Shown in pieces: positions 5,694 to 32,210 of a stretch of 32,228 nt of DNA (the stretch's first letter is position 1; each line of letters begins with the position of its first letter). The position numbers and the translations under genes are program-made. Below the pieces are notes generated by a model. It was given only the letters and a program-made list of their open reading frames with translations. It did no database searches and was not told where the DNA came from. Source of the DNA: Sphingobacteriaceae bacterium (lineage in GTDB: Bacteria > Bacteroidota > Bacteroidia > Sphingobacteriales > Sphingobacteriaceae); contig CANKAT010000034.1 of NCBI GenBank assembly GCA_947479815.1, forward strand, positions 1-32,228. Direction: 5' to 3'.

Positions 5694-7835
5694 ATGAAAA
5701 GTACAACAACAAATAGCAGGCGTGATTTTTTAAAAATGAGCGCAATAACCGGGGGTGGCCTGGTACTCGGATTCAATTGGTTTAGCGCTGAAGCCAGTGC
5801 GCCTGTGGTGTTCAGCAGTGTAATTGCTGGAGATATTAATTTTAACAGTTACTTATCAATTGCAACTGATGGTGCTATAACCATTATGTCGCCGAATCCT
5901 GAATTAGGACAAAATATTATTACATCATTTCCGATGGTGGTAGCTGAAGAGCTAGAAGCCGATTGGAAAATGGTAAAGATAGTGCAAGCCAATCTCGACA
6001 ATAAGTTTGACCGCCAGCTTACTGGGGGTAGTGGTGCAGTTCCGCATTCTTGGAAATTATTAAGAAATGCAGGTGCTACAGCTAAATTCATGTTAATTGA
6101 GGCTGCTGCCAAGAAATGGGCTGTTCCTGCCTCAGAATGTATTGCGGCGAATAGTTTTGTAAACCATAGCCGTAGTGGCAAAAAATTAGGTTTCGGAGAG
6201 CTTGCTGAAGCAGCTTCAAAGATTCCTGTTCCTGCAACAGTTAAGTTGAAAGACCGGAAAGACTTTAAATTAATCGGCAAATCATCGGTAAGGAATGTAG
6301 AAAATCTTAAAATAGTAACAGGCAAGCCTTTATTTGGTTTAGATTTTTACCGTGATGGGATGGTCTTTGCGATGATTCAGCGTCCGGAGCAATTCGGAAT
6401 GAAGCTCAAATCATTTGATGGTTCTATCGCTAAATCAATGCCGGGTATCATTGATGTGGTTTCTTTTAAAAACAATGTCGCTGTTGTAGGTAAATCAACT
6501 TGGCAAGTACTCAAAGCAAGGAAAATGTTAAAGATCGAATATGAAAAAGAATTCGCGCTAGAGAGTACTGAAGATCATGATAAATTATTCCTGAATTTGA
6601 TGGATAATGGTCAGGCCACGGTTAGACGTAAGGATGGGGATGTAGATGCTGCATTTAAAAATGCAGCCAAAGTAATTAAAGGAGAGTATCAGTGTCCGTT
6701 TATTTCTCATAGTCCGATGGAACCTATGAATTTTTTCGCGCATGTTCGCCCAGATGGTGTTGAACTTGTTGGACCAACACAAACTCCAGGCAGAGCACGA
6801 GCCGAAATTTCTAAACTATTGAACATTCCTGAAGATAAAATCACCGTGCAGATAACCCGCTTAGGTGGTGGCTTTGGAAGAAGACTGTATAACGATTTTG
6901 CACTTGAAGCGGCTGAATTGTCAAGCATTATTAAAGCTCCGGTAAAATTGATCTGGACCAAAGAAGACGACATGACAGCTGGCACTTATCGCCCCGCGGT
7001 ACGTTATCGTTTTGAAGCAGCATTGGATGCATCAGGGAACCTAACAGGATATAAATTAAGAGGAGTAGGGATCAATTCAGGTAACCCAACCAGGGAACAT
7101 AATTTTCCATCTGGTTCAGTTGAAAACCTGTTAATTGACTCAGTTGAACATAAATCGCCAATCACAACCGGAGCATGGCGCGCTCCAATAACCAACTTCC
7201 TTGCTTTTGCAGAGCAGGCCTTTATTGATGAGGTTGCTCAAGCAGCGGGTAAGGACCCAGTACAATTCAGATTGGATCTTCTTGCAAAGGCAAAGAAATC
7301 ACCAGTTGGTGATATCCGCTATGATATCAGCAGGATGGAAGGCGTCATTAAAATGGTTGCAGAAAAGTCTGGCTGGGGTAAGAAAAAAGATGTTTCACAA
7401 GGGTTTTCTGTCTATTTCTCACACGCATCTTATGTAGCTCAGGTTGCTGATGTAGTGATGAGAGCAGGCTTGCCTGTTGTTAAAAAGATCTATGCAGTTT
7501 CTGATTGCGGGCAGGTAGTTAGTCTAAATGGAGCTAGCCATCAGGTAATGGGTGGAATAGTTGACGGACTAGGTCATGCCATGTACAGCAAGTTAAGTTT
7601 CAGAGATGGTGCTGCTGATCAGAACAACTACAATACGTATCGCCTGATCAGAATGAAGGAAGTTCCTGAAATTGAAACCCATTTTGTGGATAATGGAATT
7701 GATCCTACCGGATTGGGTGAGCCCGCACTTCCTCCAACTGGTGGGGCAGTGGCAAATGCTATTTTTAAGGCTACCGGTAAGCGTGTAAGAAATCAGCCTT
7801 TTATTGAGGAAGACGTTTTCAAGACAATTTCATAA
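5694..7835 (+). CDS. iorB: Tat-exported molybdopterin subunit of a xanthine-oxidase-family hydroxylase (IorB type)
   Basis: I choose the ATG at 5694 (713 residues) because it opens a textbook twin-arginine signal (SRRDFLKM) five bases after the upstream stop; a TTG at 5685 is the alternative. The protein has the single-chain IorB layout with duplicated aldehyde-oxidase domains. The molybdopterin motif LGGGFGRR is at residues 390-397. GAWRAP lies near residue 495, and the catalytic glutamate is Glu676 in GLGEPALPP. With the 2Fe-2S subunit it would oxidise an aldehyde or N-heteroaromatic compound in the periplasm. No cytochrome c subunit or XdhC-like chaperone follows; a strong terminator does. 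The cofactor gene moaCB is about 1 kb downstream on the other strand. Confidence 0.92.
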   Translation: MKSTTTNSRRDFLKMSAITGGGLVLGFNWFSAEASAPVVFSSVIAGDINFNSYLSIATDGAITIMSPNPELGQNIITSFPMVVAEELEADWKMVKIVQANLDNKFDRQLTGGSGAVPHSWKLLRNAGATAKFMLIEAAAKKWAVPASECIAANSFVNHSRSGKKLGFGELAEAASKIPVPATVKLKDRKDFKLIGKSSVRNVENLKIVTGKPLFGLDFYRDGMVFAMIQRPEQFGMKLKSFDGSIAKSMPGIIDVVSFKNNVAVVGKSTWQVLKARKMLKIEYEKEFALESTEDHDKLFLNLMDNGQATVRRKDGDVDAAFKNAAKVIKGEYQCPFISHSPMEPMNFFAHVRPDGVELVGPTQTPGRARAEISKLLNIPEDKITVQITRLGGGFGRRLYNDFALEAAELSSIIKAPVKLIWTKEDDMTAGTYRPAVRYRFEAALDASGNLTGYKLRGVGINSGNPTREHNFPSGSVENLLIDSVEHKSPITTGAWRAPITNFLAFAEQAFIDEVAQAAGKDPVQFRLDLLAKAKKSPVGDIRYDISRMEGVIKMVAEKSGWGKKKDVSQGFSVYFSHASYVAQVADVVMRAGLPVVKKIYAVSDCGQVVSLNGASHQVMGGIVDGLGHAMYSKLSFRDGAADQNNYNTYRLIRMKEVPEIETHFVDNGIDPTGLGEPALPPTGGAVANAIFKATGKRVRNQPFIEEDVFKTIS

Positions 7836-8725: not shown

Positions 8726-9679
8726 TTAACAATGTCCATCACCTTCCATCATTTTGCGGGCATGGAATACACCAGGTAAAATAGCTTCTAATGATTCTTT
8801 TGCACCATTGGGGCTTCCTGGAAGGGTTACAATCAGAGTTTTGCCAATAGCTCCGGCTACCGAGCGGCTCATCATGGCAAGCGGAGTACGCATTTGTCCA
8901 AATGTGCGCATTGCCTCAGTAATGCCATCAGCATCGCGTTCCAAAATTTCTTTAACCGCACTAACGGTATTGTCACGAGGGCCAAGTCCGGTTCCTCCGG
9001 TTGTAAAAATGAACTGAATATCTTCAGCAGCCCAATCTTTGATCTGTTTCTGAATGGCTTCCTTATCATCAGGAAGTATTTTATAATGAAGAACATTACC
9101 ATTGACCTTTTTTAGCATTTCGGAAATCAACAGCCCACTTTTATCTTCGCGTTCACCTCTTGCTGTTGAATCAGAACAAACAAGTACTGCGCAGGATGGA
9201 GATTCTTCAATATAGCGGTTGCGATCACTTTTGCCACCTTTCTTTTCCAAAAGCCTGACATTGCCAATCTCTAGCTTGGTATCTACGGGCTTTAGCATGT
9301 CGTAAATCTCAAGTGCAGCAATAGAAACAGCAGTTAATGTTTCCATTTCTATTCCTGTGCGCCCAATAGATTTAGCTTCGCCCTGGATCACAATTCCTGT
9401 TTTGTTCAATATGTTCTCATCAAAGAGCTCAGTATGTAGTTCTCTATTAATAAACTCAAATGTGAAATCCATAGCATCAATAGTAACCGGATGGCAATGG
9501 GGAAGAAGCTGAGGGGTTAGCTTTGCTCCTAAAAAACCGGCTGCACGTGCCACATCAAAAAGGTTCCCTTTTGGAAGTGAATTTGATTTGATTAATTCAA
9601 TGCTTTTATCTGAACAAAAAATAATGGCAATAGCCCTTGCGGTACGGAGGGTAATTTGCTTATGACTGATATCGCGCAT
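8726..9679 (-). CDS. moaCB: Bifunctional molybdenum cofactor biosynthesis protein MoaC/MoaB
   Basis: A 317-residue fusion. Residues 1 to about 150 are MoaC (cyclic pyranopterin monophosphate synthase, working with MoaA): Lys53, the LLPHCHP histidines 61/63, the TGIEMETLTAVS block, and Asp127/Lys130 in IYDMLK match the known catalytic residues. Residues about 160-317 are MoaB/MogA-like, with TTGGTGLGPRDNT at 226-238 and LPGSPNGAKESLEAILPG, which adenylates molybdopterin or binds it. The fusion occurs elsewhere in Bacteroidota. No other moa or moe gene is near, but the molybdenum hydroxylase at 5230-7835 is an obvious client. The start codon sits directly against a long simple-repeat tract that forms its leader. 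Confidence 0.93.
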   Translation of the reverse strand: MRDISHKQITLRTARAIAIIFCSDKSIELIKSNSLPKGNLFDVARAAGFLGAKLTPQLLPHCHPVTIDAMDFTFEFINRELHTELFDENILNKTGIVIQGEAKSIGRTGIEMETLTAVSIAALEIYDMLKPVDTKLEIGNVRLLEKKGGKSDRNRYIEESPSCAVLVCSDSTARGEREDKSGLLISEMLKKVNGNVLHYKILPDDKEAIQKQIKDWAAEDIQFIFTTGGTGLGPRDNTVSAVKEILERDADGITEAMRTFGQMRTPLAMMSRSVAGAIGKTLIVTLPGSPNGAKESLEAILPGVFHARKMMEGDGHC

Positions 9680-13163: not shown

Positions 13164-13748
13164 ATGAGCAGCAGAGATAGTATACTGGCGGCAGTTTTAA
13201 AGAATCAGCCCCCTTTAACCGATCTTCCTGATATTTCTGGGTTTAAAGTTCCTGAAGAAGATGTGGTTGAAAAATATAAAAATACATTTTCAGGAATTGG
13301 AGGTTTGGTGTATAGCGCCAAAAATATAGAAGCAATCAAAAACCATATCCGGGAAAACTTTGACACTGGAAAAAGGATAGTCAGCACATTGCCTGCTTTA
13401 AGCGATGTTGCTGAGATTTGTTCTACTTCTGTTGAACCTCAAAGCTTTGAAGATGTAGAACTTTCTATTATTGAATCCCGTTTAGCTGTTGCCGAGAATG
13501 GTGCTGTTTGGTTAACCGAAGAGGTTATGGGACATCGAATAATACCTTATATTTCTCAGCATCTGGCAGTTGTTGTGTATGAATCTAAAATCGTTTCAAC
13601 GATGCATGAGGCTTATGCTAAAATTGCAGATGAAGCCTATGGTTTTGGTGGGTTCATCGGTGGGCCGTCAAAAACGGCTGATATTGAACAGGCCCTAGTT
13701 TTGGGTGCTCATGGCCCACTGAGTATGACTGTTTATTTAATTAAGTGA
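13164..13748 (+). CDS. lutC: Lactate utilization protein C (LUD domain)
   Basis: A 194-residue protein made of one LUD domain, with the ESRLAVAENGAVWLTEE core at about residues 109-125 and the C-terminal GFIGGPSKTADIEQALVLGAHGP block that is diagnostic of LutC. It is the third subunit of the lactate-oxidising complex. An ATG ten bases upstream is out of frame, so the start at 13164 is secure. The stop is 20 bases before the malate synthase ATG, so the latter almost certainly shares the transcript. Confidence 0.92.
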   Translation: MSSRDSILAAVLKNQPPLTDLPDISGFKVPEEDVVEKYKNTFSGIGGLVYSAKNIEAIKNHIRENFDTGKRIVSTLPALSDVAEICSTSVEPQSFEDVELSIIESRLAVAENGAVWLTEEVMGHRIIPYISQHLAVVVYESKIVSTMHEAYAKIADEAYGFGGFIGGPSKTADIEQALVLGAHGPLSMTVYLIK

Positions 13749-13768
13749 TTTTTTGGAATACCCATATT

Positions 13769-15655
13769 ATGAACAACACTACCATCATTATCCGTGATAA
13801 CCTTAAATTAGAATACCAGGATGTATATACAGCCGAAGCAATAGAGGCACTTCAAGCACTTGCTCATTTTAATAAGTCTGTAAAAGGTCTGATGGCCGAA
13901 CGGATCACTAGGAGAAACGAACGTCAAAAGAATAAAACAAGAATTACATTTCATGATCCTGAAAGTTTGATCCCAGGCACTGATATTAAAGTTCAGGATG
14001 CACGGGATGGAAAATTTGAAGGGTCTGTTATACCAAAAGATCTGCAGCGTCAGTGGATACAGGGAACTGGTCCGGCATCAAAACCGAATGCAGGCCTGGA
14101 GAGCAGCATCAGAAATGCAGCCTATGCTCTTTTATCAGGCGCTGACGGTTGGATGTTTGATGGTGAAGATGCTCTGGGTCAAATCGCAAGCATGTCGCTT
14201 GATAATCAACGTAATTTAAAGCTTGCAATATCTAAAGATCCTATATTCTTAAAAGTAGCTGAACAGGTTGCTTCTGAAATGAACCGTTGGTCGGAAGGTT
14301 TTTTGGGCTATCCGATGGTAAAAGACTGGAAGACACAGCTTGACTTTACCACTAAAATCTTCAGATGCCGCGGTCTTCATCTAGATGATCGTCATATACG
14401 TGATTCAGATGGTGTGGCATTGGCGGCTTCAATTGCTGACTTATGTCTTTATGTGGTTAATAATTACAGACAACTTCAGATTTCAGGTTCTTCTATTGTA
14501 CTGTATCTTCCAAAAATACAAACAGCTACAGAGGCAGCTCTTTGGAATAAGATGCTGTCGGCATTGGAGGAACACCTCAAACTTGATATAGGAACTATAA
14601 AAGTTTATCTTCTTGTAGAGCAGCTTGAAGCTACCTATCAACTTATGGAGATTAGGGCTGTACTTGGAAAACATTTTGTGGGGTATAATACAGGCCGTTG
14701 GGATTATATCAATAGTGTTTCTGATGCCATGGCATGGGATAAGTCTTTTATCAATCCCAATATTGAGTCGGTAACCATGACCTATGGGTATATGCGTAAT
14801 TATGAAGACCGAGTTCGAAGAGCGGTTAATACTCCTGATAAAAATGGAAATTGTGCGATTTGGCAGGGTGGGATGGAACCTAATATTCCGGTTGGATCAC
14901 CTGATGGGGTATCAGCAAGTATGAAAAAGGCTTTTTCTGGAGCTGAAAGAGAACAAAGAGAGGGAGCCAGCGGAAAATGGGTTGCACATTGGAAAATGGT
15001 GAATATTGTCAGACCAGTCTGGGAAAAAATTGGAGAAGCGAATCAGGTGGGAAGAAAATTCCAAGCCCTAACCTATAGCCAGCAGGATGCGGATGGTTTA
15101 ATTTTTTTGGAGCCTGCACCAATTACGATCAGGGGTGCTCGAAATCTGTTGAGTGTGGCCATTCAATATGGTAATGCTTTTGCTCAGGGAATGCAGGCAG
15201 CAGCACTTAAGGCCGCAGATGACTTTGGAAACGATGATATTCTTTACCTGATGGAAGATATGGCCACAGGCGAGATTAGATTAAGTATTGTATGGGAATG
15301 GGTGCATAAAGGAGCCAAATTTACAGATGCAGATGTAGAAACTGGAGTAAATGCCGGAGATCTATTTAGTTTTGACCTCCTTAAAAGATTAATTGAAGAG
15401 GAATATGCAAAGCTTTTGAAGGCTGACAATAAGGATGTTTATGATGCTTCAAAAACAACAACACTTCCAATTGCCAGAGAGATCGCTGAGATCTATGTGT
15501 TCAATGAATTTAAGATTCCATGGTTTATTGATCTGTTGAATATCAATCTCAATAATTCTGATTTGCAAATTGCTAAGAAAAGGATCTCGAATTATATTGA
15601 AACCTTTAAGAATGATGGAAGACGTATAACGGAGAATCCTGATTTTGTAGGTTAG
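13769..15655 (+). CDS. aceB: Malate synthase
   Basis: Condenses glyoxylate with acetyl-CoA to malate. I use the ATG at 13769 (628 residues); the upstream GTG at 13745 would overlap lutC. Recognisable motifs in order are CRGLHLDDRH with Arg201, LVEQLEA with Glu284, the GRWDYI block with Asp312 (Mg ligand), and LMEDMATGEI with Asp497, the expected general base. It is roughly 95 residues longer than the usual ~530-residue isoform A, partly in a C-terminal extension. The usual VAHP motif reads VAHW. Its place as fourth gene of a lut operon is notable because no isocitrate lyase is adjacent; glyoxylate may come from elsewhere or from glycolate. The family call is firm; activity on glyoxylate is inferred. 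Confidence 0.85.
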   Translation: MNNTTIIIRDNLKLEYQDVYTAEAIEALQALAHFNKSVKGLMAERITRRNERQKNKTRITFHDPESLIPGTDIKVQDARDGKFEGSVIPKDLQRQWIQGTGPASKPNAGLESSIRNAAYALLSGADGWMFDGEDALGQIASMSLDNQRNLKLAISKDPIFLKVAEQVASEMNRWSEGFLGYPMVKDWKTQLDFTTKIFRCRGLHLDDRHIRDSDGVALAASIADLCLYVVNNYRQLQISGSSIVLYLPKIQTATEAALWNKMLSALEEHLKLDIGTIKVYLLVEQLEATYQLMEIRAVLGKHFVGYNTGRWDYINSVSDAMAWDKSFINPNIESVTMTYGYMRNYEDRVRRAVNTPDKNGNCAIWQGGMEPNIPVGSPDGVSASMKKAFSGAEREQREGASGKWVAHWKMVNIVRPVWEKIGEANQVGRKFQALTYSQQDADGLIFLEPAPITIRGARNLLSVAIQYGNAFAQGMQAAALKAADDFGNDDILYLMEDMATGEIRLSIVWEWVHKGAKFTDADVETGVNAGDLFSFDLLKRLIEEEYAKLLKADNKDVYDASKTTTLPIAREIAEIYVFNEFKIPWFIDLLNINLNNSDLQIAKKRISNYIETFKNDGRRITENPDFVG

Positions 15656-21103: not shown

Positions 21104-22432
21104 ATGAAAAGGAGACAATTCATGAGTGGCTCGCTTGCAGCGGGTATTGGGAGTTTTAGCCTGGGGGCTTATGGATTTGAAAAAAACTCAAATTTAAATT
21201 TTCCTCTTGAGCATAATAGTACTTCAATTGAAATAAACCTGAGCCTGAAAAAGCTTCAGGATCGTTATCATTCAGATTTGTTCGACGATTTCATCCCTCA
21301 CATGGATCAGTTCGTTATTGATCATCAGAACGGAGGGTTTATGTGTTCAGTTGACATAACCAATGGTAAGCAGGTTAATAGTAATAAAACTGCCTGGTTT
21401 GAGGGAAGAGGAATGTGGACCTATTCTTTTCTCTATAATCATTTCGGTAAAAATCCGAAATATCTTGAGATTGCACGTAAATCCAAAGATTTTATACTAA
21501 AGCTTCAGCCTAAAGATAATAGCTTCTGGACTTCCTCCTTTGACAGGGAGGGAAATCCGTTGAGTGGACCTGGCGATATTTACAGTAGTTTATTTGTGGC
21601 TGAAGGTCTAGCTGAATTTGCAAAAGCATCTGGTGAAAAACAATATTTTACACTCGCCAAGAAAATAATTCTATCATGCCTTGATCGTTACGATAGTCCA
21701 GATTATGATTATTATGTGGCTTATTTAAATCCTGAAGCTCCTAAGATTCCTGCTCCCAGGGTTTTAGGACATTGGATGGTGTTTCTTAGGGCTGCAACAC
21801 AAATTTTGGAAGACGGCCCAGATGCAGATATGCAAAAAGTTGCAGATCGTTGTCTCGATGCCTGTTTAAATCACCATCTTAATCCTGAATACAAGCTGTT
21901 TAATGAGGTTTTGAATCATGATATGAGCAGGCCTACCAATTCTTTTAAAGACTTTTCTTATACCGGCCATGGAATTGAAACTTGCTGGATGCTTTTGTTT
22001 GAAGCCGCCCGAAGAAAGGATAAGGATCTATTTGCTCGAATTGCCGAAATATTTAAGAGACATGTACTTGTTGCTCATGATCAAGTTTATGGGGGCTATT
22101 TTAGAGCGCTAGATCATGTAGGAAATAACACCTGGAAAGTAGATAAAGTGCTTTGGCTGCAAGAAGAAGTGTTAATTGGTAGTTTATTTATTGCCGAGCA
22201 TACAGGAGATAGCTGGGCCCAGAGATGTTTCAAGGAGACACTAGATTACGTTCAACAGAAGTTTGATGTGTCCGGCAATTTGTTTTGGAGCTCTTCTGGC
22301 GACAGGCAGTTAAAGGAATATGCAAAGAACAGGGCTGAACATTATCATCATCCCCGTCATTTGATGCTAAATCTTCTTGCGGTTAATCGTATGTTAAAGC
22401 GCAATGGCCAGGTATCAAATTTATTTGGCTAA
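21104..22432 (+). CDS. Tat-exported AGE-family (N-acylglucosamine 2-epimerase-like) protein 1
   Basis: A 442-residue (alpha/alpha)6-barrel protein of the AGE/cellobiose-epimerase superfamily. It carries a short twin-arginine signal (MKRRQFMSGS followed by a Gly/Ala-rich core). The AGE landmarks are present: AWFEGRGMWTYSFLY at residues 97-111, LGHWM near 221, GHGIETCW with His289, and HYHHPRHLM with His415. The two histidines match the catalytic pair of AGE. Known AGE enzymes epimerise or isomerise sugars in the cytosol, so an exported form is atypical. It is the first gene of a nine-gene run and is followed 41 bases later by a paralogue. Substrate is unknown. Confidence 0.82.
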   Translation: MKRRQFMSGSLAAGIGSFSLGAYGFEKNSNLNFPLEHNSTSIEINLSLKKLQDRYHSDLFDDFIPHMDQFVIDHQNGGFMCSVDITNGKQVNSNKTAWFEGRGMWTYSFLYNHFGKNPKYLEIARKSKDFILKLQPKDNSFWTSSFDREGNPLSGPGDIYSSLFVAEGLAEFAKASGEKQYFTLAKKIILSCLDRYDSPDYDYYVAYLNPEAPKIPAPRVLGHWMVFLRAATQILEDGPDADMQKVADRCLDACLNHHLNPEYKLFNEVLNHDMSRPTNSFKDFSYTGHGIETCWMLLFEAARRKDKDLFARIAEIFKRHVLVAHDQVYGGYFRALDHVGNNTWKVDKVLWLQEEVLIGSLFIAEHTGDSWAQRCFKETLDYVQQKFDVSGNLFWSSSGDRQLKEYAKNRAEHYHHPRHLMLNLLAVNRMLKRNGQVSNLFG

Positions 22433-22473: not shown

Positions 22474-23817
22474 ATGAATAAAGAATATTCAAGAAGAGAT
22501 TTTTTAAGAAAGAATTCAGTTGCTGGATTTGGAATGATAGGTGCAGTTTCATTTGGGGGAACTTTATTAAGCACTGATGCCCTTGCCAAAGACATTGAAA
22601 ATGCTGCCGAAATCAATAAGATCTCAGAACTTAACCTGAAAAAGCTTCGTGATACATACATAGAAGCACTTTTGGGGAAGTTTATTCCTAATATGGATAA
22701 GTATGTAGTTGATCATGAATTAGGTGGATTTATGTGTTCTATTGATATCCGGAGCAGAAAGCTTATCAGTACTACTAAACGTGCTTGGTTTGAAGGTAGA
22801 GGTATTTGGATGTTTTCATTTCTTTATAATACTATTGAAAAAAAACCCCGATATCTTGAAATAGCTACTCAATCAAAGAATTTCATTTTAAAATTATTAC
22901 CAAAGGATGGAAGCTATTATATCTCCTCATTTACCAAAGAAGGTGTTCCGATAGGAAATGTTGAAGGCGACATTTATGGCAATCTATTTGTTGCCGAAGG
23001 CTTAGCTGAATATTCGAAGGCGCTTGGTGATAAGCGGTATTTCGATCAGGCTAAAGATATTATTCTTAAAGCTGTAGAACGTTATGATCGTCCTGATTTT
23101 ACTTATGCATATAAGGCAGAAACCAGACTTGCCGGGCCGCGTATTCTGGGCCATTGGATGATATTATTAAGCCTTTCTACACAAATGTTGCGTCAGTATC
23201 CTGATACAGAAATCAGAGCTCTGGCCGATCGTTGTGTGGATGCAATTATGAATCATCACCTAAACCCTGAATTTAAATTGTTAAATGAAGCATTGGCTCA
23301 TGATATGAGTCTGCTCACTGATCCTGTAGCCTCACAGTATGGTGATATTGGTCATGGGTGTGAAACTTTAGCCTTTGTTATGAATTACGCAGTGCTAATT
23401 AAGGATGCAAAATTGTTTAAAAGAGCCTCGGCAGAGTTTAAAAGACATGTGGATATAGCTTGGGATGATATCTATGGTGGTCATTTTCATGTTTTGGAAA
23501 ATGTCAGTACGAATACCTGGACCTTAAATAAGGTGCGCTGGTTACAGGAGGAGATCCTCATAGGAGCATTGATCCTGATTGAGCATACTGGTGATGAATG
23601 GGCTTTAAATTGTTTTGCCAAGACAGAAGCCTATATTAGAGAAAAATATGTACGATCTGAATATGCCTTTGTTGTTGATAGCGGTGACAGGAAAATGGAA
23701 AAGCATACCAGTGTTCGTGCTGAGCATTATCATTATCCGCGTCAGTTGATGGTATCTATACTGGCAATAGATAGGATTTTGAAAAGAGGAGAAAAGCCTT
23801 CTGGAATTTTTTCGTAA
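22474..23817 (+). CDS. Tat-exported AGE-family (N-acylglucosamine 2-epimerase-like) protein 2
   Basis: A 447-residue tandem paralogue of the preceding gene with a stronger Tat signal (SRRDFLRKN, cleavage after DALA near residue 38). It shares the same blocks: RAWFEGRGIWMFSFLY (103-118), LGHWM, NHHLNPE, GHGCET with His294, and HYHYPRQLM, which keeps the catalytic-type histidine two residues before Pro. Residues around the pocket differ between the copies (GIETCW versus GCETLAF), so they may handle different anomers or products. The downstream gap of 90 bases before the aldo-keto reductase is among the longest in the operon and holds only a weak AATCTG/CAGATT hairpin. Confidence 0.82.
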   Translation: MNKEYSRRDFLRKNSVAGFGMIGAVSFGGTLLSTDALAKDIENAAEINKISELNLKKLRDTYIEALLGKFIPNMDKYVVDHELGGFMCSIDIRSRKLISTTKRAWFEGRGIWMFSFLYNTIEKKPRYLEIATQSKNFILKLLPKDGSYYISSFTKEGVPIGNVEGDIYGNLFVAEGLAEYSKALGDKRYFDQAKDIILKAVERYDRPDFTYAYKAETRLAGPRILGHWMILLSLSTQMLRQYPDTEIRALADRCVDAIMNHHLNPEFKLLNEALAHDMSLLTDPVASQYGDIGHGCETLAFVMNYAVLIKDAKLFKRASAEFKRHVDIAWDDIYGGHFHVLENVSTNTWTLNKVRWLQEEILIGALILIEHTGDEWALNCFAKTEAYIREKYVRSEYAFVVDSGDRKMEKHTSVRAEHYHYPRQLMVSILAIDRILKRGEKPSGIFS

Positions 23818-23907: not shown

Positions 23908-24960
23908 ATGAGTAAAACAGAATATCCTGGTCAGGCATTTTACAATGCTCCGTTTGTTGTCAATTCTTTCAATGATATGCCTTATCGTACCTTGGGCAGA
24001 TCTGGTCTTAAGGTGTCAAATATAGGTTTGGGTACCTGGAAAATGGGTTATCCTGAAAGCGGTGACGATTCACGCATTGATGAAAAGAATTCATTGAGTA
24101 TTCTTGACCGAGCCATTGATTTGGGTGTTACTTTCTGGGATACTGCAAATCGCTACAATAATGCATCAGGCAATAGTGAACGTATTATAGGGAAATGGTT
24201 TAAAAACAATCCTGACCAAAGGCGGAACGTAGTGCTTGCTACAAAAATGGCTGGCACAATGGATGGCTTAAGTCCGAATCATTGTGGGATTTCAAGAGGA
24301 AATATCATGGAATCTGTATATGCAAGTCTCGAAAGGCTTCAAATTGATCATATAGACCTGCTTTATTTTCACAGATTTGATGGAATTACACCTCCTGAAG
24401 AAAGCCTTGAAGCTATTGAAGATCTTGTGAAACAGGACCTTATACGTTATTTTGCTGTTTCAAATGCCAGTGTGGATATTCTCAAAACCTATCAGAATGT
24501 TCAGTCTCAACTCACTGTCAGAAGCCGAATCCTTGCAGTGCAGAATCAGTTTGACTTGTTAGATGGCGAATCAGCAGAAGATAAAGGGGTTTTGGATTAT
24601 GCTTCTGAACAAGGAATCTCATTTATAGGTTGGAGCCCAATGGCAAGGGGGCTTCTAACCAACAGGTATTTAAATCCGATTGTAGCGGGTCCTGGCGATC
24701 GATTGTTCGATGAAGGAGATCTGAAATCGAAGACTAGTCCAGAAAACATGGCTAAACTACATGCTCTTGCCTCTATTTCAAACGAAATGGGAGTTGAACT
24801 TAGTCAGCTTGTTATGGCCTATATGTTAACAATGAAGGGAATGGGACCAATTATTCCATCTTCTTCAAGTGTTAAACAGCTTGAATCAAATGCTGCAGCA
24901 GGAAAGCTTATTCTAACAAATGAGCAGATTGAAAAAGTCAGGAATATTGTAAACTATTAA
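23908..24960 (+). CDS. Aldo-keto reductase
   Basis: A 350-residue NAD(P)H-dependent (beta/alpha)8-barrel reductase. The catalytic tetrad is complete: Asp78 and Tyr83 (WDTANRY), Lys113 (LATKM) and His155 (YFHRFD). The cofactor-binding C-terminal segment IPSSSSVKQLESNAAA is present. The N-terminus has about 23 extra residues before the PYRTLGRSGLKVS start of the family, without a signal peptide, so it is cytosolic, unlike its neighbours. It probably reduces or oxidises a sugar carbonyl in this pathway. The PL10-like gene starts 10 bases downstream, indicating co-transcription. Confidence 0.9.
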   Translation: MSKTEYPGQAFYNAPFVVNSFNDMPYRTLGRSGLKVSNIGLGTWKMGYPESGDDSRIDEKNSLSILDRAIDLGVTFWDTANRYNNASGNSERIIGKWFKNNPDQRRNVVLATKMAGTMDGLSPNHCGISRGNIMESVYASLERLQIDHIDLLYFHRFDGITPPEESLEAIEDLVKQDLIRYFAVSNASVDILKTYQNVQSQLTVRSRILAVQNQFDLLDGESAEDKGVLDYASEQGISFIGWSPMARGLLTNRYLNPIVAGPGDRLFDEGDLKSKTSPENMAKLHALASISNEMGVELSQLVMAYMLTMKGMGPIIPSSSSVKQLESNAAAGKLILTNEQIEKVRNIVNY

Positions 24961-24970: not shown

Positions 24971-26533
24971 ATGGCAACTTTCAAATCTATTGTTGGTACT
25001 CTTTCGTTTTTATTGTTATTAGGCTCTACTAGTTTTGCACAGCCTAAAAATCTAAATGAGGATGTTCGCAATGCCATGCTTCGAGCTACTAAATTTATGG
25101 TTGAAAAGGCAAGTACTAATGGTGGATATGTTGCCCATTATTTGCCAGATTTTTCGCGTCGCTGGGGAGAACTGGAAGGATATCAGACTCAGATATGGGT
25201 TCAGGATCCAGGAACAGTGAGCATGGGAAATATTTTTCTGGATGCCTATAATGCAACAGGAAATGAATATTACTATGAAGCTGCAGATAAAGTAGCCTCT
25301 GCACTGATCTGGGGGCAGCGTCCTGAGGGTGGATGGAATTACATGATCGACTTTGCTGGTGATCGTTCTTTAAAACAATGGTATAATACAATAGGTAAAA
25401 ATGCATGGGGTTTTGAAGAATATTATTATTACTATAACAATACCACTTTTGATGATTCCAATACTTCAGGACCAGCAAATTTCCTGTTGAGGATCTATCT
25501 GCAAAAATTGGATATCAAGTATAAACCTGCTTTGGAAAAAGCAATTCAGCTAATTATTGACAGTCAGTATCCTCTTGGAGGATGGCCTCAGCGATATCCT
25601 TTAAAGAATAACCATCCCAAGAATGGGAAAGAAGACTATACATCCTTTTACACGTTCAACGATGAGGTAATCTCTGGAAATATTGATTTTCTTATTCAGT
25701 GTTATGCTACACTCGGAGAAGAGCGTTTTCTGGATCCAATCAGAAGGGGCATGCATTTTTATCTGATTACTCAGCAGGGAAATCCGCAGGGAGGATGGGG
25801 GCAGCAATACAATATGGAACTTCAGCCCACTTATGCACGTAGTTATGAGCCAGCGGCATTAATGCCTGGATTTACATATACCAATGCACTATTATTGTTA
25901 AAATACTACCAGTTAACAGGTGATAGTAAATTCCTTGCCCGCATTCCGGATGCGATAAAATGGCTTGAAAGTACCGTGCTGCCTCCTGATAAAAGTGAAG
26001 GAGGAACACGTACCCATGCTACATTCATTGAAATTGGGACCAATAAGGGACTTTATGCACATCGAAAAGGTAATGGCGTGAGTGAGGGTCATTATTGGGT
26101 TGATTACGACGACAAAAATCTTCTGGCCCATTATGGAGGTAAAGCCAATGTAAATATTCAGCATCTGAAAGATGAGTATAAAAGAGTCAGTTCACTTTCT
26201 GCTGATCAAGCTATTAAGAATTCGCCTTTAAAGGTGAGTATTGTGGAAGGTTTACCTCAAAAACAAGTACTAATAGGTTCAGCAATTAAAACTATCCCAA
26301 ATGAATCATTAATTAATTCTGTTATTAAATCGCTGGATCAGGACCGCTGGCTAGTGAAGCATATTCAAATAAGCAGACCCTATTCCGTTTCAGTAGATGG
26401 TAAGGAAATGAATACAGCTAAATTGAGTGATGAGAATGGTAAAGGTATAGTTGATGCTTCTGAGCAGCAGTATATTTCAACCAGGGAATATGAGAAGAAT
26501 ATGAGTTTATTAATAAAATACCTGGGTAGATAG
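24971..26533 (+). CDS. Secreted PL10-like pectate lyase family protein
   Basis: A 520-residue protein with a Sec signal peptide (cleavage near SFAQP) and the all-alpha toroid typical of the Pec_lyase/PL10 family. Family landmarks are WGQRPEGGWNYMIDF near residue 115, GGWPQRYPL near 203, FNDEVISGNIDFL near 227, GGWGQQYN near 275, and PTYARSYEPAALMPGF near 287, which holds the family's catalytic-type arginine. A C-terminal extension of about 100 residues follows the lyase domain. It should cleave an acidic polysaccharide or uronide by beta-elimination. Its place among amino-sugar-like enzymes makes polygalacturonate only one candidate. The 36-base gap to the next gene fits the operon. Confidence 0.8.
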   Translation: MATFKSIVGTLSFLLLLGSTSFAQPKNLNEDVRNAMLRATKFMVEKASTNGGYVAHYLPDFSRRWGELEGYQTQIWVQDPGTVSMGNIFLDAYNATGNEYYYEAADKVASALIWGQRPEGGWNYMIDFAGDRSLKQWYNTIGKNAWGFEEYYYYYNNTTFDDSNTSGPANFLLRIYLQKLDIKYKPALEKAIQLIIDSQYPLGGWPQRYPLKNNHPKNGKEDYTSFYTFNDEVISGNIDFLIQCYATLGEERFLDPIRRGMHFYLITQQGNPQGGWGQQYNMELQPTYARSYEPAALMPGFTYTNALLLLKYYQLTGDSKFLARIPDAIKWLESTVLPPDKSEGGTRTHATFIEIGTNKGLYAHRKGNGVSEGHYWVDYDDKNLLAHYGGKANVNIQHLKDEYKRVSSLSADQAIKNSPLKVSIVEGLPQKQVLIGSAIKTIPNESLINSVIKSLDQDRWLVKHIQISRPYSVSVDGKEMNTAKLSDENGKGIVDASEQQYISTREYEKNMSLLIKYLGR

Positions 26534-26569: not shown

Positions 26570-28366
26570 ATGATTTTTTATCAAACTATTTCAGCATTTT
26601 TCAAGGCAGAGATCACTAGATTAAAGCTTGTTCTGGTCTTGATCATGGTATTGGTTTATTCCTGTTCAAAGATATCTACCACCTTACCCAAAGCCTCATT
26701 TGACAATGGAGGCCTATTTTTACCAGATAATTTTGAGGCACTGGTAGTGGTTGACAGTATTGGTAAGGCCAGACATCTTACGGTGAATGCGAATGGAGAT
26801 ATCTATGTCAAGTTGACGTATAACCGTGCCATGAAGGGATCTGGAGGTACAGTGGCTTTACGTGATTCCAATAAGGATGGCCGGGCAGATTCGATCGTTT
26901 ATTTTGGAGATTATACGGATATAGGCAGCTCTGCTGTGGGTGTGACCATTCACAATGGTTACCTATATACAAGTACTGTAAATCAGGTATTAAGAAATAA
27001 ATTAAGGCGTGGACAATTGGTTCCTGACAGTAAAACAGAGGTTATACTTACTGATCTTGACCCTCATGTTGCAAAGAACTGGCATACCACCAAACCATTG
27101 GCCTTTGATAAAAAGGGATTGATGTATGTTCCTTTTGGTTCACCATCAGATGCCGGACAGGATATGTCTAAATACGGCCCAACCGGAATACCGGGTGGTA
27201 AAGGTTTAGATCCTTCACCAGAACGAATTGATCATGCCGGAATTTGGCGTTTTGATGCCAATAAAATTGGTCAAACACAAAAGGATGGGTATAAATATGC
27301 TACGGGTATCCGGAGTGTGGTAGGTATGACATGGAACAATGCGGATGACCATTTATATGCTGTGATGAATGGAATTGATAATTTTCGTACCCTTTATCCC
27401 GACCTATATACGGCATGGCAAGCTGCGGTTCTTCCGTCAGAGCCTTTGCTGAAGGTTACTGAAGGTTCAGATTTTGGATGGCCTTATGCTTATTATGATC
27501 AGTTACTGAAAAAGAATATGCTGCAGCCTGGTTATGGTGGAGATGGTAAAATAATTGGTAGAGCAGCCAACTTCGATGTGCCGGTTATTGGTTTTCCTGG
27601 ACACTGGGCACCAATGGATGTTTTATTTTATCAGGGTAATCAGTTTCCAGATCGGTATAAAAAGGGTGCTTTCGTTGCTTTTCATGGTTCTACCGACCGC
27701 TCGCCCTATCCACAGGCCGGTTATATTGTTTGCTTTGTTCCTTTTGAAAACGGGCAACCCAATGGTAAAATGGAGGTATTTGCAGATGGTTTTACCGGTG
27801 TTGATACAGTTGTGAATACAAGTGATGCCGTTTATAGGCCTATGGGGCTTTCAACCGGTCCGGATGGCTCATTATACATTTCAGAATCAAACAAAGGAAA
27901 GATTTGGAGGGTTATGTATAAAGGAGATAAAAACAAATTTGGTGACCCGCAGCTGGCAAAGATGGAGCTTCGTAAGCAGAGGTCTTATATCAAAACACCG
28001 GATGTTGTCAAAGATAATCTGCAACGAGGAGATCGGTTGGCTGGGAGCATTTTATATACTACTTATTGTGCAAGTTGCCATCAAAGTAATGGAAAGGGAG
28101 ACGATAGCAGATTTCCTCCGCTTGCCGGATCAGATTGGGTGATAGGAGATAAAACCAGGCTGATCAATGCTATTCTAAATGGCCTTGAAGGTGAAATTAA
28201 AGTGAATGGACAATCTTGGCAAGGTTTAATGCCTGCCCATGCCAAAATATTGGATGATCATGCAATTGCATCTATATCAACCTATATCCGACAAAGTTTT
28301 GGAAATAAGGCCAGTGCAGTGAGTGCCGTTGAGGTCAGTAAATTAAGAAATGTAACAATGCCATAA
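26570..28366 (+). CDS. Lipoprotein L-sorbosone/aldose-dehydrogenase-like propeller with C-terminal cytochrome c
   Basis: A 598-residue lipoprotein (lipobox LVYSC, Cys32). Residues about 50-465 form a PQQ-dependent sugar-dehydrogenase-like beta-propeller related to sorbosone dehydrogenase and soluble glucose dehydrogenase, with NWHTTKPLAFD, GIRSVVGMTWN and EGSDFGWPYAYYD segments. Residues about 485-585 are a class I cytochrome c: Cys500-x-x-Cys503-His504 and the distal Met554 (GLMPAH). It would oxidise an aldose or aldehyde in the periplasm and hand electrons to the respiratory chain. No acidic outer-surface sorting motif follows the cysteine, so it probably faces the periplasm. No PQQ biosynthesis genes are in the window. 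Confidence 0.87.
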   Translation: MIFYQTISAFFKAEITRLKLVLVLIMVLVYSCSKISTTLPKASFDNGGLFLPDNFEALVVVDSIGKARHLTVNANGDIYVKLTYNRAMKGSGGTVALRDSNKDGRADSIVYFGDYTDIGSSAVGVTIHNGYLYTSTVNQVLRNKLRRGQLVPDSKTEVILTDLDPHVAKNWHTTKPLAFDKKGLMYVPFGSPSDAGQDMSKYGPTGIPGGKGLDPSPERIDHAGIWRFDANKIGQTQKDGYKYATGIRSVVGMTWNNADDHLYAVMNGIDNFRTLYPDLYTAWQAAVLPSEPLLKVTEGSDFGWPYAYYDQLLKKNMLQPGYGGDGKIIGRAANFDVPVIGFPGHWAPMDVLFYQGNQFPDRYKKGAFVAFHGSTDRSPYPQAGYIVCFVPFENGQPNGKMEVFADGFTGVDTVVNTSDAVYRPMGLSTGPDGSLYISESNKGKIWRVMYKGDKNKFGDPQLAKMELRKQRSYIKTPDVVKDNLQRGDRLAGSILYTTYCASCHQSNGKGDDSRFPPLAGSDWVIGDKTRLINAILNGLEGEIKVNGQSWQGLMPAHAKILDDHAIASISTYIRQSFGNKASAVSAVEVSKLRNVTMP

Positions 28367-28444: not shown

Positions 28445-28909
28445 ATGAAATCAACCATCTTAATTGGTTCTTTGCTCGTTTTTGGATTAACTTCCTGCGT
28501 AGGCAATTTGACAAGCGAATCGAAAAATGTTAGCGCTGAACGGAAAAATATTATGCCAGAAGGATATAACCGTGGATTGCCATTCACACCCGGAATTCTG
28601 GTTGATGGTACACTTTATGTAGCAGGATTTAGCGGTGAAGATCCAAAAACCGGTGTTATTCCTGAAGAATTTGAGACCGAAGTTAAGCAGGCACTAGACA
28701 AGATCGGTGTAATTTTAAAGGAAGCAGATATGGATTATAAAGATGTTGTTTCTGTTCAGGTATATCTTACAGATATGGAGCTTTTTGAGCGGATGAATGT
28801 TGTTTATCGCACCTATTTTGATGAGCCACGTCCAACGCGTTCAATTATGGGAATTAAAAGTCTGATTGGCCCTGCAAGAATTGAGATCACGGTAACTGCA
28901 CGTAAATAA
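28445..28909 (+). CDS. Lipoprotein RidA-family enamine/imine deaminase
   Basis: A 154-residue Rid (YjgF/YER057c/UK114) protein preceded by a lipoprotein signal: hydrophobic core, then LTSC with Cys18. The Rid core runs from about residue 40 to the end, with VSVQVYLTDMELFERMN and the signature PTRS holding Arg132, equivalent to the essential Arg105 of RidA, then PARIEITVTA. Rid proteins hydrolyse reactive enamines/imines released by PLP-dependent eliminases, normally in the cytosol. A membrane-anchored, periplasm-facing version next to an exported PLP enzyme gene (two genes downstream) is coherent. The trimeric assembly expected of Rid proteins would still be possible with lipid anchors. Catalytic activity is inferred from Arg132. 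Confidence 0.9.
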   Translation: MKSTILIGSLLVFGLTSCVGNLTSESKNVSAERKNIMPEGYNRGLPFTPGILVDGTLYVAGFSGEDPKTGVIPEEFETEVKQALDKIGVILKEADMDYKDVVSVQVYLTDMELFERMNVVYRTYFDEPRPTRSIMGIKSLIGPARIEITVTARK

Positions 28910-28964: not shown

Positions 28965-29705
28965 ATGAATATAAATATATCCGATAATCCTGTCGAATTA
29001 GGAAAAGTGTCTGCTGCTGCTGCTGTAGAGGGAATAATTAATGCAATTAAAGAGAAAGGACAGGCTAATGTTATTCTTGCTACTGGTGCAAGTCAGTTTG
29101 AAACGTTAAAGAACTTAGTTGAAAATACAACTATAGATTGGTCAAAGGTGGTGATGTTTCATCTTGATGAATATATCGGCCTTCCTGAAACAGCACCTGC
29201 AAGTTTCAGGAAATACCTGAATGAACGGTTTTTAAATTTGGTAAGTCCGCTTAAAGCCAGTTATCTGGTTAATGGTGAAACAGATCCTGAAGGAGAATGT
29301 AAGCGTTTAAATCAGATCATTACCGATCACCCAATTGATGTGGCATTCGTTGGAATTGGCGAAAATGGGCATCTAGCTTTCAATGATCCTCCTGCTGATT
29401 TTGATACACTCTCACCTTATATTGTTGTAGATCTGGATGAAAAATGTCGTTTGCAACAGTTTAATGAAGGATGGTTTCCCTCATTATCTGAAGTTCCGAA
29501 GAAGGCAATAAGTATGTCAATCAAACAGATTTGCAAATCAAAATTGATTATTTGTTCCGTTCCGGATAGCAGGAAAGCTGAGGCTGTTAAAAATACATTG
29601 GAGAATAAGGTAAGTAATAATGATCCTGCGAGTATTTTACAGACACATGCTAATTGTTTATTCTTTCTGGATAAATCTTCTGCATCCTTGCTTTCAAAAA
29701 ATTAG
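28965..29705 (+). CDS. NagB-like glucosamine-6-phosphate deaminase/isomerase family protein
   Basis: A 246-residue cytosolic protein of the NagB/6-phosphogluconolactonase superfamily. It has LATGAS (phosphate loop, residues 38-43), FHLDEY with the proton-transfer Asp68, and [14 protein letters not shown] with His136. Compared with E. coli NagB, the D-x-H pair reads Asn134-x-His136 and the glutamate of the following N-E-P is Asp141; Asn at the first position also occurs in shorter Bacillus-type enzymes. It probably isomerises and deaminates an amino-sugar phosphate, possibly not GlcN6P itself. It lacks an export signal, so it would act downstream of uptake. It supports an amino-sugar substrate for the operon. 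Confidence 0.85.
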
Positions 29706-29728: not shown

Positions 29729-30940
29729 ATGAAACGTAGAGAACTGATTAAATATTTATCTGTAGCACCCTTGGCAGGAGGTCTAACTACTGTTCCATTA
29801 ACTACTGCAAGTGCTGCAAGCTCTATTGTTAAGAGAGACCTGATTAAGGAATTAGGTTTAAGAACATTTATCAATGCCTATGGTGTTTATACCACCCATA
29901 CTGCTTCTTTGATGGCTGATGAGGTAATAGAAGCAATAAATGGGGCTTCAAGAAAATATGTTTTGTATAATGACCTACAGGATAAAGTTGGCGAAAAGAT
30001 CGCAGCCATGTGTCATGCTGAATCTGCTATGGTTACTTCTGGTTGTTGGTCGGCATTGGTGTTGGGAACTGCTGGGATCCTCACTGGAATGGACAAGATC
30101 AAAGTAGCCAAGTTGCCAGATGTTACTGATTTTGAACGGAATGAAGTGATTTTGCAGAAAACACATAGCGGTTCTTATGACCATGCCTTAAGTAATACCG
30201 GAATAAAGCGAATTTTCGTTGAAACTGCGGAAGAATTCGAGAAGGCTGTCAATTCTAAAACTGCTATGACCTGGTTCTACAATGAAGCAGCTCCATGGGG
30301 CAAAATAGGACATGATCAGTGGCTTTCTTTATCAAAAAAACATAAAATTCCTGCAATGGTTGATATTGCTGCCGATGTTCCACCTGTTGAGAATCTTTGG
30401 AAATTCAATGATATGGGCTATGACGTGGTTTGTGTTTCAGGAGGAAAAGCTATTCGCGGTCCGCAGAGTGCCGGAATTTTGATGGGAAGAAAAGAAATTA
30501 TTGCAGCCGCCCGTTTGAGTGCTCCTCCAGGAGGAAATAATATTGGTCGCGGAATGAAGGTTAATAAGGAAGAGGTGTTTGGTATGTATGCGGCATTAGA
30601 TCGCTTCATCAATCTTGATCAAGGTAAGGAATGGAAAATGTGGGAAGATCGTGCCCATGTTATTTTAAATGCAGTAAAAAAAGTGAAAGGTGTTCAAGCT
30701 GAGATCTTTGTCCCACCAATAGCCAATGTAACTCCTACCTTGAGAATATCTTGGGACCAATCGCTAATAAAGCTAAGCACCAAAGAGATGACTCTCAATC
30801 TTAGAAATGGTGAACCCTCTATTGAAGCTCCAAAAAGCATTAATGATGCCATGATACTGTCTGTTTGGATGATGCAGACTGGCGAGGAAAAGATTGTGGC
30901 CAAAAGATTTACTGAAGAATTAATTAAAGCATCAGTTTAA
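29729..30940 (+). CDS. Tat-exported SelA-like PLP-dependent enzyme (ammonia-lyase/dehydratase family)
   Basis: A 403-residue fold-type I PLP enzyme of the SelA-related group that includes D-glucosaminate-6-phosphate ammonia-lyase (DgaE). The Schiff-base lysine is Lys240 (VSGGKAIRGPQ), Asp212 of VDIAADVPP pairs with the pyridine nitrogen, and the TSGCWSAL phosphate-side helix is at 103-110. It is not selenocysteine synthase: it lacks that enzyme's N-terminal tRNA-binding region and sits in a sugar operon. Unusually it begins with a Tat-like signal (KRRELIKYL, then a Gly/Ala/Thr core to about residue 30), implying export of folded holoenzyme. SelA-like and COG3964 genes are also neighbours in other phyla (the EF_0837 region of Enterococcus). 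Confidence 0.85.
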   Translation: MKRRELIKYLSVAPLAGGLTTVPLTTASAASSIVKRDLIKELGLRTFINAYGVYTTHTASLMADEVIEAINGASRKYVLYNDLQDKVGEKIAAMCHAESAMVTSGCWSALVLGTAGILTGMDKIKVAKLPDVTDFERNEVILQKTHSGSYDHALSNTGIKRIFVETAEEFEKAVNSKTAMTWFYNEAAPWGKIGHDQWLSLSKKHKIPAMVDIAADVPPVENLWKFNDMGYDVVCVSGGKAIRGPQSAGILMGRKEIIAAARLSAPPGGNNIGRGMKVNKEEVFGMYAALDRFINLDQGKEWKMWEDRAHVILNAVKKVKGVQAEIFVPPIANVTPTLRISWDQSLIKLSTKEMTLNLRNGEPSIEAPKSINDAMILSVWMMQTGEEKIVAKRFTEELIKASV

Positions 30941-30956: not shown

Positions 30957-32210
30957 ATGAGCCTCAAAAAATTATTTTTCTTTTCAGTTTTGATATCTTT
31001 CTCTGTTACTGTTCAGGCACAATTGCCTTATCGCTTGTTGATTAAGGGTGGGCACGTAATCGATGCAAAAAACACTATTGATGAAGTGATGGATATTGCA
31101 ATTCAGAATAATAAGATTGTTCGTGTTGCAAAGAATATTGATACGTTAATGGCTCAACAGGTTATTCATGCAGAGGGCATGTACGTTACACCAGGGCTGA
31201 TTGATATTCATGCCCATGTTTTTTATGGTTTTGATCCGGATAGTTATTTAAGTGGAGGAACAGTTGCAGTACTTCCTGATCAATCTACGTTTCGTTCAGG
31301 AGTAACTACAGTGGTTGATGCTGGAGGTGCCGGTTGGAGATCATTCGGGACATTTAAAAAAAATATCATTGATGTTTCAAAAACTAGAGTCCTGTCTTTG
31401 CTAAATATTGTTGGAGAGGGGATGAGAGGAATAGAGCAATATGAGCAAAATGTGAGTGATATGGATGCAAGAAGAACTGCAGATACGGCCCTTGCTCATA
31501 AAAAAGATATCGTGGGGTTTAAGGTTGCCCATTTTACAGGTTCAGAATGGACCCCGGTTCAGCGAGGTGTTGATGCCGGAAAATTTGCCAATATGCCTGT
31601 AATGATTGATCTGAACAGCCTTTATTTTTCAATTGAAGAACTATTTACAAAGTATCTCCGCCCTGGAGATATTTATACACACACCTTTATACAATCTTCA
31701 AGGGGAGTGGTAGATCCAATTGTAGATTTGAAAACCCGCAAGTTAAAACCATTTGTTCTAGAAGCTCAGAAAAAGGGAATTGTATTCGATGTTGGCTTTG
31801 GCGGCGGCAGTTTCAATTTTAATCAGGCCTTGCCTGCCTTAAAAGCAGGATTTTATCCAAATACGATGGGCACTGATCTTCATCAGGGCAGTGTAAATGG
31901 AGCCATGAAAGACCAAATGAACGTTTTATCTATTTTCCTTTCCATGGGTATGAAAATCCCTGAACTCATCAAAGCAAGTACCTGGACACCTGCTCAGGTA
32001 ATCAAGAGAGAAGAACTTGGTAATCTGTCTGAAGGTTCAGTAGCTGATATTGCGATTTTAAGTATGCGTAATGGAAATTTCGGTTTCAGAGATGTTGCAG
32101 GAAATAAATATTGGGGCAAACAAAAGTTTGAATGTGAAATGACCATTAGAGATGGTAAGATTGTCTATGATTTGAATGCGATTGCAGGATTGATTCGTCA
32201 AGTAAAATAA
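30957..32210 (+). CDS. Exported COG3964-type amidohydrolase with an altered metal site (paralogue C)
   Basis: A 417-residue paralogue of the two left-hand amidohydrolases, with a signal peptide (cleavage near TVQAQ). Metal ligands His85/His87 (DIHAH), Lys189 (VGFKVAH), His242 (YTHTF) and Asp307 (GTDLH) are kept. The strand-6 histidine of DVGHGGG is replaced by Phe281 (DVGFGGG, codon TTT). In subtype I amidohydrolases that histidine binds the beta metal, so this enzyme may be mononuclear, have changed specificity, or be inactive. All other conserved blocks are intact, arguing against decay. It starts 16 bases after the SelA-like gene and closes the visible operon; no terminator is seen before the window ends. 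Confidence 0.86.
   Translation: MSLKKLFFFSVLISFSVTVQAQLPYRLLIKGGHVIDAKNTIDEVMDIAIQNNKIVRVAKNIDTLMAQQVIHAEGMYVTPGLIDIHAHVFYGFDPDSYLSGGTVAVLPDQSTFRSGVTTVVDAGGAGWRSFGTFKKNIIDVSKTRVLSLLNIVGEGMRGIEQYEQNVSDMDARRTADTALAHKKDIVGFKVAHFTGSEWTPVQRGVDAGKFANMPVMIDLNSLYFSIEELFTKYLRPGDIYTHTFIQSSRGVVDPIVDLKTRKLKPFVLEAQKKGIVFDVGFGGGSFNFNQALPALKAGFYPNTMGTDLHQGSVNGAMKDQMNVLSIFLSMGMKIPELIKASTWTPAQVIKREELGNLSEGSVADIAILSMRNGNFGFRDVAGNKYWGKQKFECEMTIRDGKIVYDLNAIAGLIRQVK

Follow-up and report, generated by a model that had tools for sequence, protein, structure and literature searches.

The window, by which we mean the whole stretch of 32,228 nucleotides that was analysed, contains an open reading frame at positions 29729-30940 of the plus strand that begins with ATG and encodes a PLP enzyme of 403 amino acids. 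The gene belongs to a plus-strand run of two epimerase-like genes, an aldo/keto reductase, a pectate-lyase-like protein, a sugar dehydrogenase-cytochrome c, RidA, a NagB-like protein, the PLP enzyme and an amidohydrolase, in that order, with intergenic gaps of 10 to 90 bases. The features that concern us are the following.

1138-2445, minus strand: exported amidohydrolase of the same family as the one at 30957-32210
2474-3787, minus strand: exported amidohydrolase, also of the family of 30957-32210
21104-22432, plus strand: N-acylglucosamine 2-epimerase-like protein with a Tat-type leader (MKRRQFM), judged from the sequence
22474-23817, plus strand: second N-acylglucosamine 2-epimerase-like protein with a Tat-type leader (SRRDFLR), judged from the sequence
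23908-24960, plus strand: aldo/keto reductase without a signal by our signal heuristic
24971-26533, plus strand: pectate-lyase-like protein with a Sec signal, on the strand and with the spacing of its neighbours
26570-28366, plus strand: exported glucose/sorbosone dehydrogenase-like domain with a C-terminal cytochrome c
28445-28909, plus strand: RidA-family imine/enamine deaminase homologue with a lipoprotein-type signal (LTSC) and Arg132 (PF01042, 86.1 bits, cut-off 27.3)
28965-29705, plus strand: NagB-like glucosamine-6-phosphate deaminase homologue without a signal, predicted to be cytosolic (TIGR00502, 147.8 bits, below the cut-off of 236.9)
29729-29824, plus strand: predicted twin-arginine signal peptide, about residues 1-32, with RRELIK at residues 3-8 and an A-rich end
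29825-30940, plus strand: DgaE/SelA-like PLP enzyme core with Lys240, Asp212, His146 and MKVNKE (from TIGR01437, 7lc0 and Foldseek)
30957-32210, plus strand: Sec-signalled amidohydrolase/deacetylase of the PRK09237/EF_0837 type (NF006689, 407.5 bits, over the cut-off of 371)

A preliminary description had read the PLP protein as a SelA-family enzyme with a twin-arginine signal, and had counted three further Tat-type products in the window, two of them in this operon. Those three are recognized from the sequence: one begins at 5685 (SRRDFLK), and the epimerase-like proteins at 21104 and 22474 lie upstream of the PLP gene on the same strand. The reading of the PLP protein itself is borne out by its motif, by alignment with DgaE, by an AlphaFold model and by conservation, as described below.

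The leader of the PLP protein is MKRRELIKYLSVAPLAGGLTTVPLTTASAASS. When the protein was aligned with crystallised DgaE, a cytosolic enzyme (chain 7lc0), residues 38-371 matched chain residues 5-335 (E 5.1e-27), and about 34 residues precede the match. A profile of 30 homologues left this boundary nearly unchanged (query residue 40 at chain residue 4). In an AlphaFold model made from the 30-homologue alignment (mean pLDDT 85.3, pTM 0.80), pLDDT fell below 50 solely at residues 1-6 and 8-31. Because the DgaE alignment starts at residue 38 or 40 and the model has low confidence at residues 1-6 and 8-31, the first 30 to 34 or so residues are, by alignment and model, extra to the catalytic fold. 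The contrary idea, that the first 30 residues lie within that fold, fails; they are also missing from the leaderless DgaE relatives that we read. The leader has what is expected of a Tat substrate, namely an RRxFLK-like motif, a moderately hydrophobic h-region and residues additional to the mature fold. On this basis, where the Tat call is that of a script combining motif and hydrophobicity, it is very likely that the PLP enzyme is exported via Tat.

Conservation of the leader points in the same direction. One scan of genome contigs gave 65 loci, and an RR pair was present near the start in 64 of them, the remaining one (L065) being masked there. The protein in the window, five of its paralogues and 62 of the loci (three partial or masked loci were dropped) provided 68 short sequences, no two of them identical. 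All 68 contain the motif RRx[LIVFA][LIVFM][KR], as do 8/8 long relatives. Over the 68 sequences, Arg3 and Arg4 are 100% identical compared with means of 51% for residues 5-33 and 74% for the core, and the conservation of the two arginines in the aligned sequences exceeds chance. Other conserved leader residues are Pro14 (100%) and Gly17 (96%). Among 32 loci from searches of the phylum and the family, seven of whose genes were already within the 65-locus set, the script found the motif in 30, all complete ORFs; the last two, when re-read, carry it too (RRKALK in L114, and RRDLIK in L158, which is cut at the contig end).

In general, a Tat leader has a lower hydrophobicity than a Sec leader. The median h-region hydrophobicity of the PLP leaders was 1.76 (103 RR-bearing of 108 PLP ORFs, the other five being cut at the locus end or within masked L065), and that of the amidohydrolase leaders from the same loci was 2.74 (103 non-RR of 104 ORFs). 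Thus, by RR motif and moderate hydrophobicity, the PLP leaders look Tat-like. Our signal heuristic at first used a threshold of 1.5, which labelled 5/10 NagB proteins as 'Sec'; it was redone with RR placement and a threshold of 1.9, a cut-off set after the NagB values were known (highest 1.84). The redone heuristic found a signal in 0/10 NagB proteins and 0/9 aldo/keto reductases. TatC is encoded in the genome of the window and in 38/38 carrier genomes tested out of the 65 loci. We rejected this as support for export because 147/148 sampled Bacteroidota carry TatC.

The preliminary description had also placed the start of the enzyme core, with Lys240 and Asp212, after the leader. This holds: both residues align with DgaE (Lys213 and Asp189 of the 7lc0 chain, where the DgaE paper numbers the PLP lysine Lys-217) and, like His146, are invariant in 68/68 short homologues. 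So are the two lysines of the MKVxKE motif, Lys277 and Lys280. At the level of named families, the protein scored below the cut-offs of TIGR01437, the DgaE family (154 bits, cut-off 385.3), NF047797, D-glucosaminate-6-P ammonia-lyase (130.8 bits, cut-off 600), and the SelA equivalog TIGR00474 (24.9 bits, cut-off 267.9), and where cut-offs were missed the NF and TIGR names are not used here as membership. The PF03841 match, at 22.8 bits, is just at its cut-off.

Two differences from DgaE bear on the substrate and on the release of the product. First, DgaE residues Arg301 and Arg332 are described as lying near the substrate phosphate (PMC9529869, available sections). At these two positions (Arg346 was left out of the comparison) Arg occurs in 0/68 sequences: the Arg301 column holds Thr in 43, Ser in 11, Lys in 10, Ala in 3 and Asn in 1, and the Arg332 column holds Met in 28, Ile in 12, Pro in 11, Val in 11 and other residues in 6. 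Thus, the replacement of both arginines fits a non-phosphorylated substrate, as would be expected outside the cytosol. Second, the proton-donor pair His162-His163 of DgaE is missing from a shorter loop; the His163 column is a gap in 68/68 and His162 is kept in 1/68. Some His is found within that loop in 27/68 sequences, so the possible loss of a proton donor is not universal. The same sections of PMC9529869 report that H163A DgaE lets free enamine, a RidA-type substrate, into solution, and cite RidA as the type of enzyme by which such compounds are removed. Given this release and the absence of the His-His pair, the frequent presence of an exported RidA is sensible. A stronger version, in which RidA simply takes the place of the missing His, is weakened because Rhizobium has both the His-His pair and a RidA neighbour; the link is therefore not strict.

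The partners of the PLP gene recur across related loci. Within flanks of up to 6 kb in the 65 loci, several on contigs shorter than that, we found an amidohydrolase near the PLP gene in 57, RidA in 48 and a sugar dehydrogenase in 42. No amidohydrolase was detected in 8 of the 65 and no RidA in 17, some of these on short contigs. SusC-like and SusD-like genes, named by eye, lie nearby in 20/65 and 16/65, and RraA-type aldolases in 10/65; DgoK, Eda and MFS genes fell within the flanks in only 2, 1 and 1 loci, respectively. The partners carry signals of their own: the amidohydrolases Sec-type signals, the RidA proteins Tat, lipoprotein or Sec signals, and the sugar dehydrogenases are exported. 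By our heuristic a signal was present in 62 of 64 RidA ORFs, a number that includes three from the genome of the window outside PLP clusters. In 40 of them RR precedes a hydrophobic stretch, and 22 have a leader of the Sec or lipoprotein kind; L036, whose start is probably misplaced, and L049 have neither. In the RidA protein of the window, Arg132 occupies what we take to be the position of the catalytic Arg. That Arg is found in 60/65 RidA ORFs shorter than 230 amino acids, the other five being cut by the locus end (60/60 of those that reach the position). A crude check of loose amidohydrolase metal-ligand patterns found DxHxH in 92/95 sequences and three other patterns in 85, 36 and 84, and was discarded as not precise enough.

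As a separate observation, the route of RidA export varies by clade, with a lipoprotein in the clade of the window, Tat in most others and Sec in some. Additionally, proteins that by eye resemble RraA-type aldolases with hydrophobic N-terminal signals occur at L124:2465-3388, at L123:6048-6977 and in the 10 related loci mentioned above, adjacent to the exported PLP genes; an exported RraA-type aldolase would be unusual.

The genome of the window (3.2 Mb) encodes 14 PLP proteins of this DgaE/SelA-like kind, 14/14 of which start with MKRR. A fifteenth, weak match on contig C28 (28.7 bits) was set aside as, by eye, a PLP enzyme of the Cys/Met-metabolism type. The same genome has 18 EF_0837-type amidohydrolases scoring above 170 bits and 15 RidA-domain matches, three of them on one 398-aa frame. 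Eight of the 14 PLP paralogues are long (529-559 aa; L097, L099, L102, L104 and L105 are contigs C9, C16, C19, C35 and C86). They are longer by about 150 residues, most of these at the C-terminus (NLSGRWDVEV... in L124 is an example), for which no Pfam match was found in the three tested. An extra N-terminal piece in these paralogues of about 550 aa was considered and rejected, as most of the additional length is C-terminal.

Several clusters bear on the fate of the product. On contig C29 of this genome, three amidohydrolases follow a short paralogue. Behind them come a protein that looks sulfatase-like by eye, a galactonate-dehydratase-like protein with a Tat leader (205.8 bits, below the cut-off of 311), a BNR-repeat protein, a 2-keto-3-deoxygalactonokinase (DgoK; 200 bits for PF05035), an aldolase of the Eda type that passes its cut-off with 173.9 bits, and an MFS protein of the D-galactonate type that stays below its own (237.8 bits, cut-off 395). 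In the related locus L014 the PLP gene is likewise followed by DgoK, Eda and MFS genes, and on C16 the long paralogues have as neighbours an exported RraA-type aldolase, a transporter of the PanS/SBF type and a further Eda. Because of the DgoK, Eda and MFS neighbours on C29 and in L014 and the aldolases and transporter on C16, these genes, which lie near few copies, speak for a product of the 2-keto-3-deoxy sugar acid type. A galactonate-dehydratase-like protein of the enolase superfamily at L123:11729-12970 has the Tat leader MQRRRFLESA and is thus a second sugar-acid enzyme that is apparently exported.

Based on the sequence, the leader, its conservation, the predicted fold and the gene association, all of which are observed, we propose a pathway in which a Tat-exported DgaE/SelA-like ammonia-lyase works with exported partners in the periplasm. 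We infer transport and localisation, the reaction and the activity, the class of substrate, the sequence of steps and the role of RidA. The enzyme would acquire PLP and fold in the cytoplasm before being exported by the Tat translocase. Periplasmic oxidation by the sugar dehydrogenase may turn an N-acetylated amino sugar into its sugar acid, from which the amidohydrolase would cleave the acyl group, leaving a 2-amino-2-deoxy sugar acid. From this compound the PLP enzyme would eliminate the C3 hydroxyl and release an enamine/imine, which RidA would hydrolyse to a 2-keto-3-deoxy sugar acid and ammonia. The product could then be imported, phosphorylated by a DgoK-type kinase and cleaved by a KDPG/KDPGal aldolase. 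As a whole, we hold this to be the best explanation and reasonably probable; the best supported function, and a fairly probable one, is that of an ammonia-lyase acting on an unphosphorylated 2-amino sugar acid. Since an enzyme set that is usually intracellular carries export signals, amino-sugar acids are probably degraded outside the inner membrane. The chances seem even that a complete catabolic PLP pathway has become periplasmic, one in which dehydrogenase, deacetylase, ammonia-lyase and RidA are all exported, joined in some clusters by an RraA-type aldolase, and in which nothing but the 2-keto-3-deoxy acid or what it is cleaved to crosses the inner membrane.

Other substrates or reactions fit less well. 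The enzyme might be an exported lyase or aldolase for ordinary D-amino or N-acyl-D-amino acids such as D-serine or D-threonine, with RidA clearing 2-aminoacrylate. OngC, an analogous fold-III enzyme, deaminates D-Ser and D-Thr too (PMC9537276, as far as available), the C9 cluster adjoins M81 metallopeptidase and gamma-glutamyltranspeptidase genes, and the number of paralogues suggests several substrates. However, the sugar dehydrogenase, galactonate-dehydratase-like, DgoK and Eda neighbours, together with SusC/SusD-like and sulfatase-like ones identified by eye, indicate sugars, and we consider this explanation unlikely. Somewhat less likely still is an O2-dependent oxidative decarboxylase, like Cap15 or PvdN, that would convert a 2-amino-3-hydroxy acid into an amide. 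In predicted structure Cap15, a biosynthetic enzyme, is as close as DgaE: a Foldseek search with the AlphaFold model ranked Cap15 (8t7j) first (TM 0.79/0.87), followed by DgaE (7lc0; 0.79/0.86) and then SelA. Cap15 and the enzyme of the window share the fold and the MKVxKE motif, the essential Cap15 residues Lys262 and Lys265 (PMC6411801, in the part available) fall at Lys277 and Lys280 when counted on the profile alignment, and PvdN is described as performing such chemistry in the periplasm. These lysines do not discriminate between the two, because DgaE has both (Lys245 and Lys248). Moreover, sequence scores favour DgaE over Cap15 (98 vs 69.5 bits, and 156.4 vs 119.1 bits by profile), and the RidA, DgoK, Eda and galactonate-type transporter neighbours suit elimination to a keto acid, not amide formation. 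That the leader does not function in export and the PLP enzyme stays cytosolic is very improbable: although the leader call is motif-based and leaderless relatives evidently manage without one, the motif is kept in every copy with a readable start, including the 14/14 paralogues, and the partners have their own Sec, lipoprotein or Tat signals where the aldo/keto reductase and NagB of the operon have none (0/19).

The proposed exported ammonia-lyase resembles several known systems in part. It shares with DgaE the fold, the PLP lysine and the aspartate, and DgaE-type genes likewise pair with PRK09237/EF_0837-type amidohydrolases. In contrast, DgaE is cytosolic, is fed by a PTS, acts on a phosphorylated substrate, lacks a leader and retains the His162-His163 pair and Arg301/332 that are replaced here. 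PvdN and PtaA of Pseudomonas are PLP enzymes exported folded through Tat, with cofactor loaded in the cytoplasm (PMC6206403, available portion), and are comparable in export route. They differ in serving siderophore tailoring, as a succinamide-forming decarboxylase and a transaminase, and the available portion links them to neither RidA nor a deacetylase. In Pseudoalteromonas, the ong cluster (OngB, OngC, OngD) also combines a deacetylase, a PLP deaminase and RidA, all needed for growth on GlcNAc-aldonate, and turns a 2-acetamido aldonic acid into KDG and ammonia; unlike the proteins studied here, OngB and OngC are predicted to be cytoplasmic, and OngC is of fold-type III and not SelA-like (PMC9537276, as far as available). 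The best matches of the enzyme in the window are DgaE, Cap15 and SelA, not an enzyme of the OngC type.

Both PLP-dependent deamination and the clearing of imines by RidA are usually regarded as cytosolic chemistry. Because PvdN and PtaA already use Tat, the export of a PLP enzyme is, on the sources available, not new in kind. What appears to be new, within the literature searched, is a Tat-exported DgaE/SelA-like branch together with an exported RidA and deacetylase. In that literature, which covered few subscription papers, we found no exported DgaE-like enzyme, no exported RidA and no exported DgaE-RidA-deacetylase pathway, and the available text of PMC4433059 mentions neither a signal peptide nor the periplasm. 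Conserved export of the PLP enzyme, RidA and the deacetylase would put amino-sugar-acid breakdown in the periplasm, and would give a testable function to large, unassigned gene clusters found in Bacteroidota and in one acidobacterium or more. It would also be a natural setting in which to ask why chemistry that generates enamines is separated from cytosolic PLP enzymes; if our proposal is true, keeping the reactive enamine out of the cytosol would protect them.

The acidobacterium is Granulicella, in which the PLP enzyme, a long PLP paralogue and RidA have RR leaders and the amidohydrolase a Sec-like one. On nine other plasmid records (Rhizobium, Salipiger, Enterococcus, Klebsiella, Haladaptatus, Ensifer, Paraburkholderia, Halorussus and Sinorhizobium medicae) the PLP enzymes that we read have no leader. 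The leaderless gene adjoins ABC genes and a leaderless RidA in Rhizobium, an amidohydrolase, ABC genes and a leaderless RidA in Salipiger, and PTS and amidohydrolase genes in Enterococcus. We built a tree from 42 selected sequences, in which one branch with support 96/94 separated the 32 leader-bearing sequences from the 10 leaderless ones (the nine plasmid-record enzymes plus the DgaE chain fragment, a small sample outside Bacteroidota). A single gain of export is thus admissible from the tree; the exact placing of that branch is unsure because S. medicae and Granulicella are long branches.

With presence in genome surveys defined as E <= 1e-20, the family was found in 3/148 genomes drawn over the phylum, one being that of the window, and in 18/121 genomes (5/25 genera) drawn from Sphingobacteriaceae, compared with 9 of the 13 genomes listed for the genus of the window, with 4 to at least 15 copies, 15 being how many candidates were scored. 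The family is therefore sparse overall and strongly expanded in this genus. In several of its species a genome has at least a dozen paralogous putative lyases, which may each be adapted to an amino-sugar acid of their own from glycans.

Elsewhere in the window, positions 5230-7835 encode a ferredoxin-like subunit followed by a Tat-leader protein, by eye a xanthine-dehydrogenase-type large subunit, and are probably a periplasmic molybdoenzyme pair. A single ORF at 8726-9679 resembles, by eye, a MoaC-MoaB fusion of molybdenum cofactor synthesis. Last, a malate synthase A-like protein of 636 aa is encoded at 13745-15655 (230.6 bits, cut-off 594.5), behind genes that by eye resemble lactate-utilisation genes.
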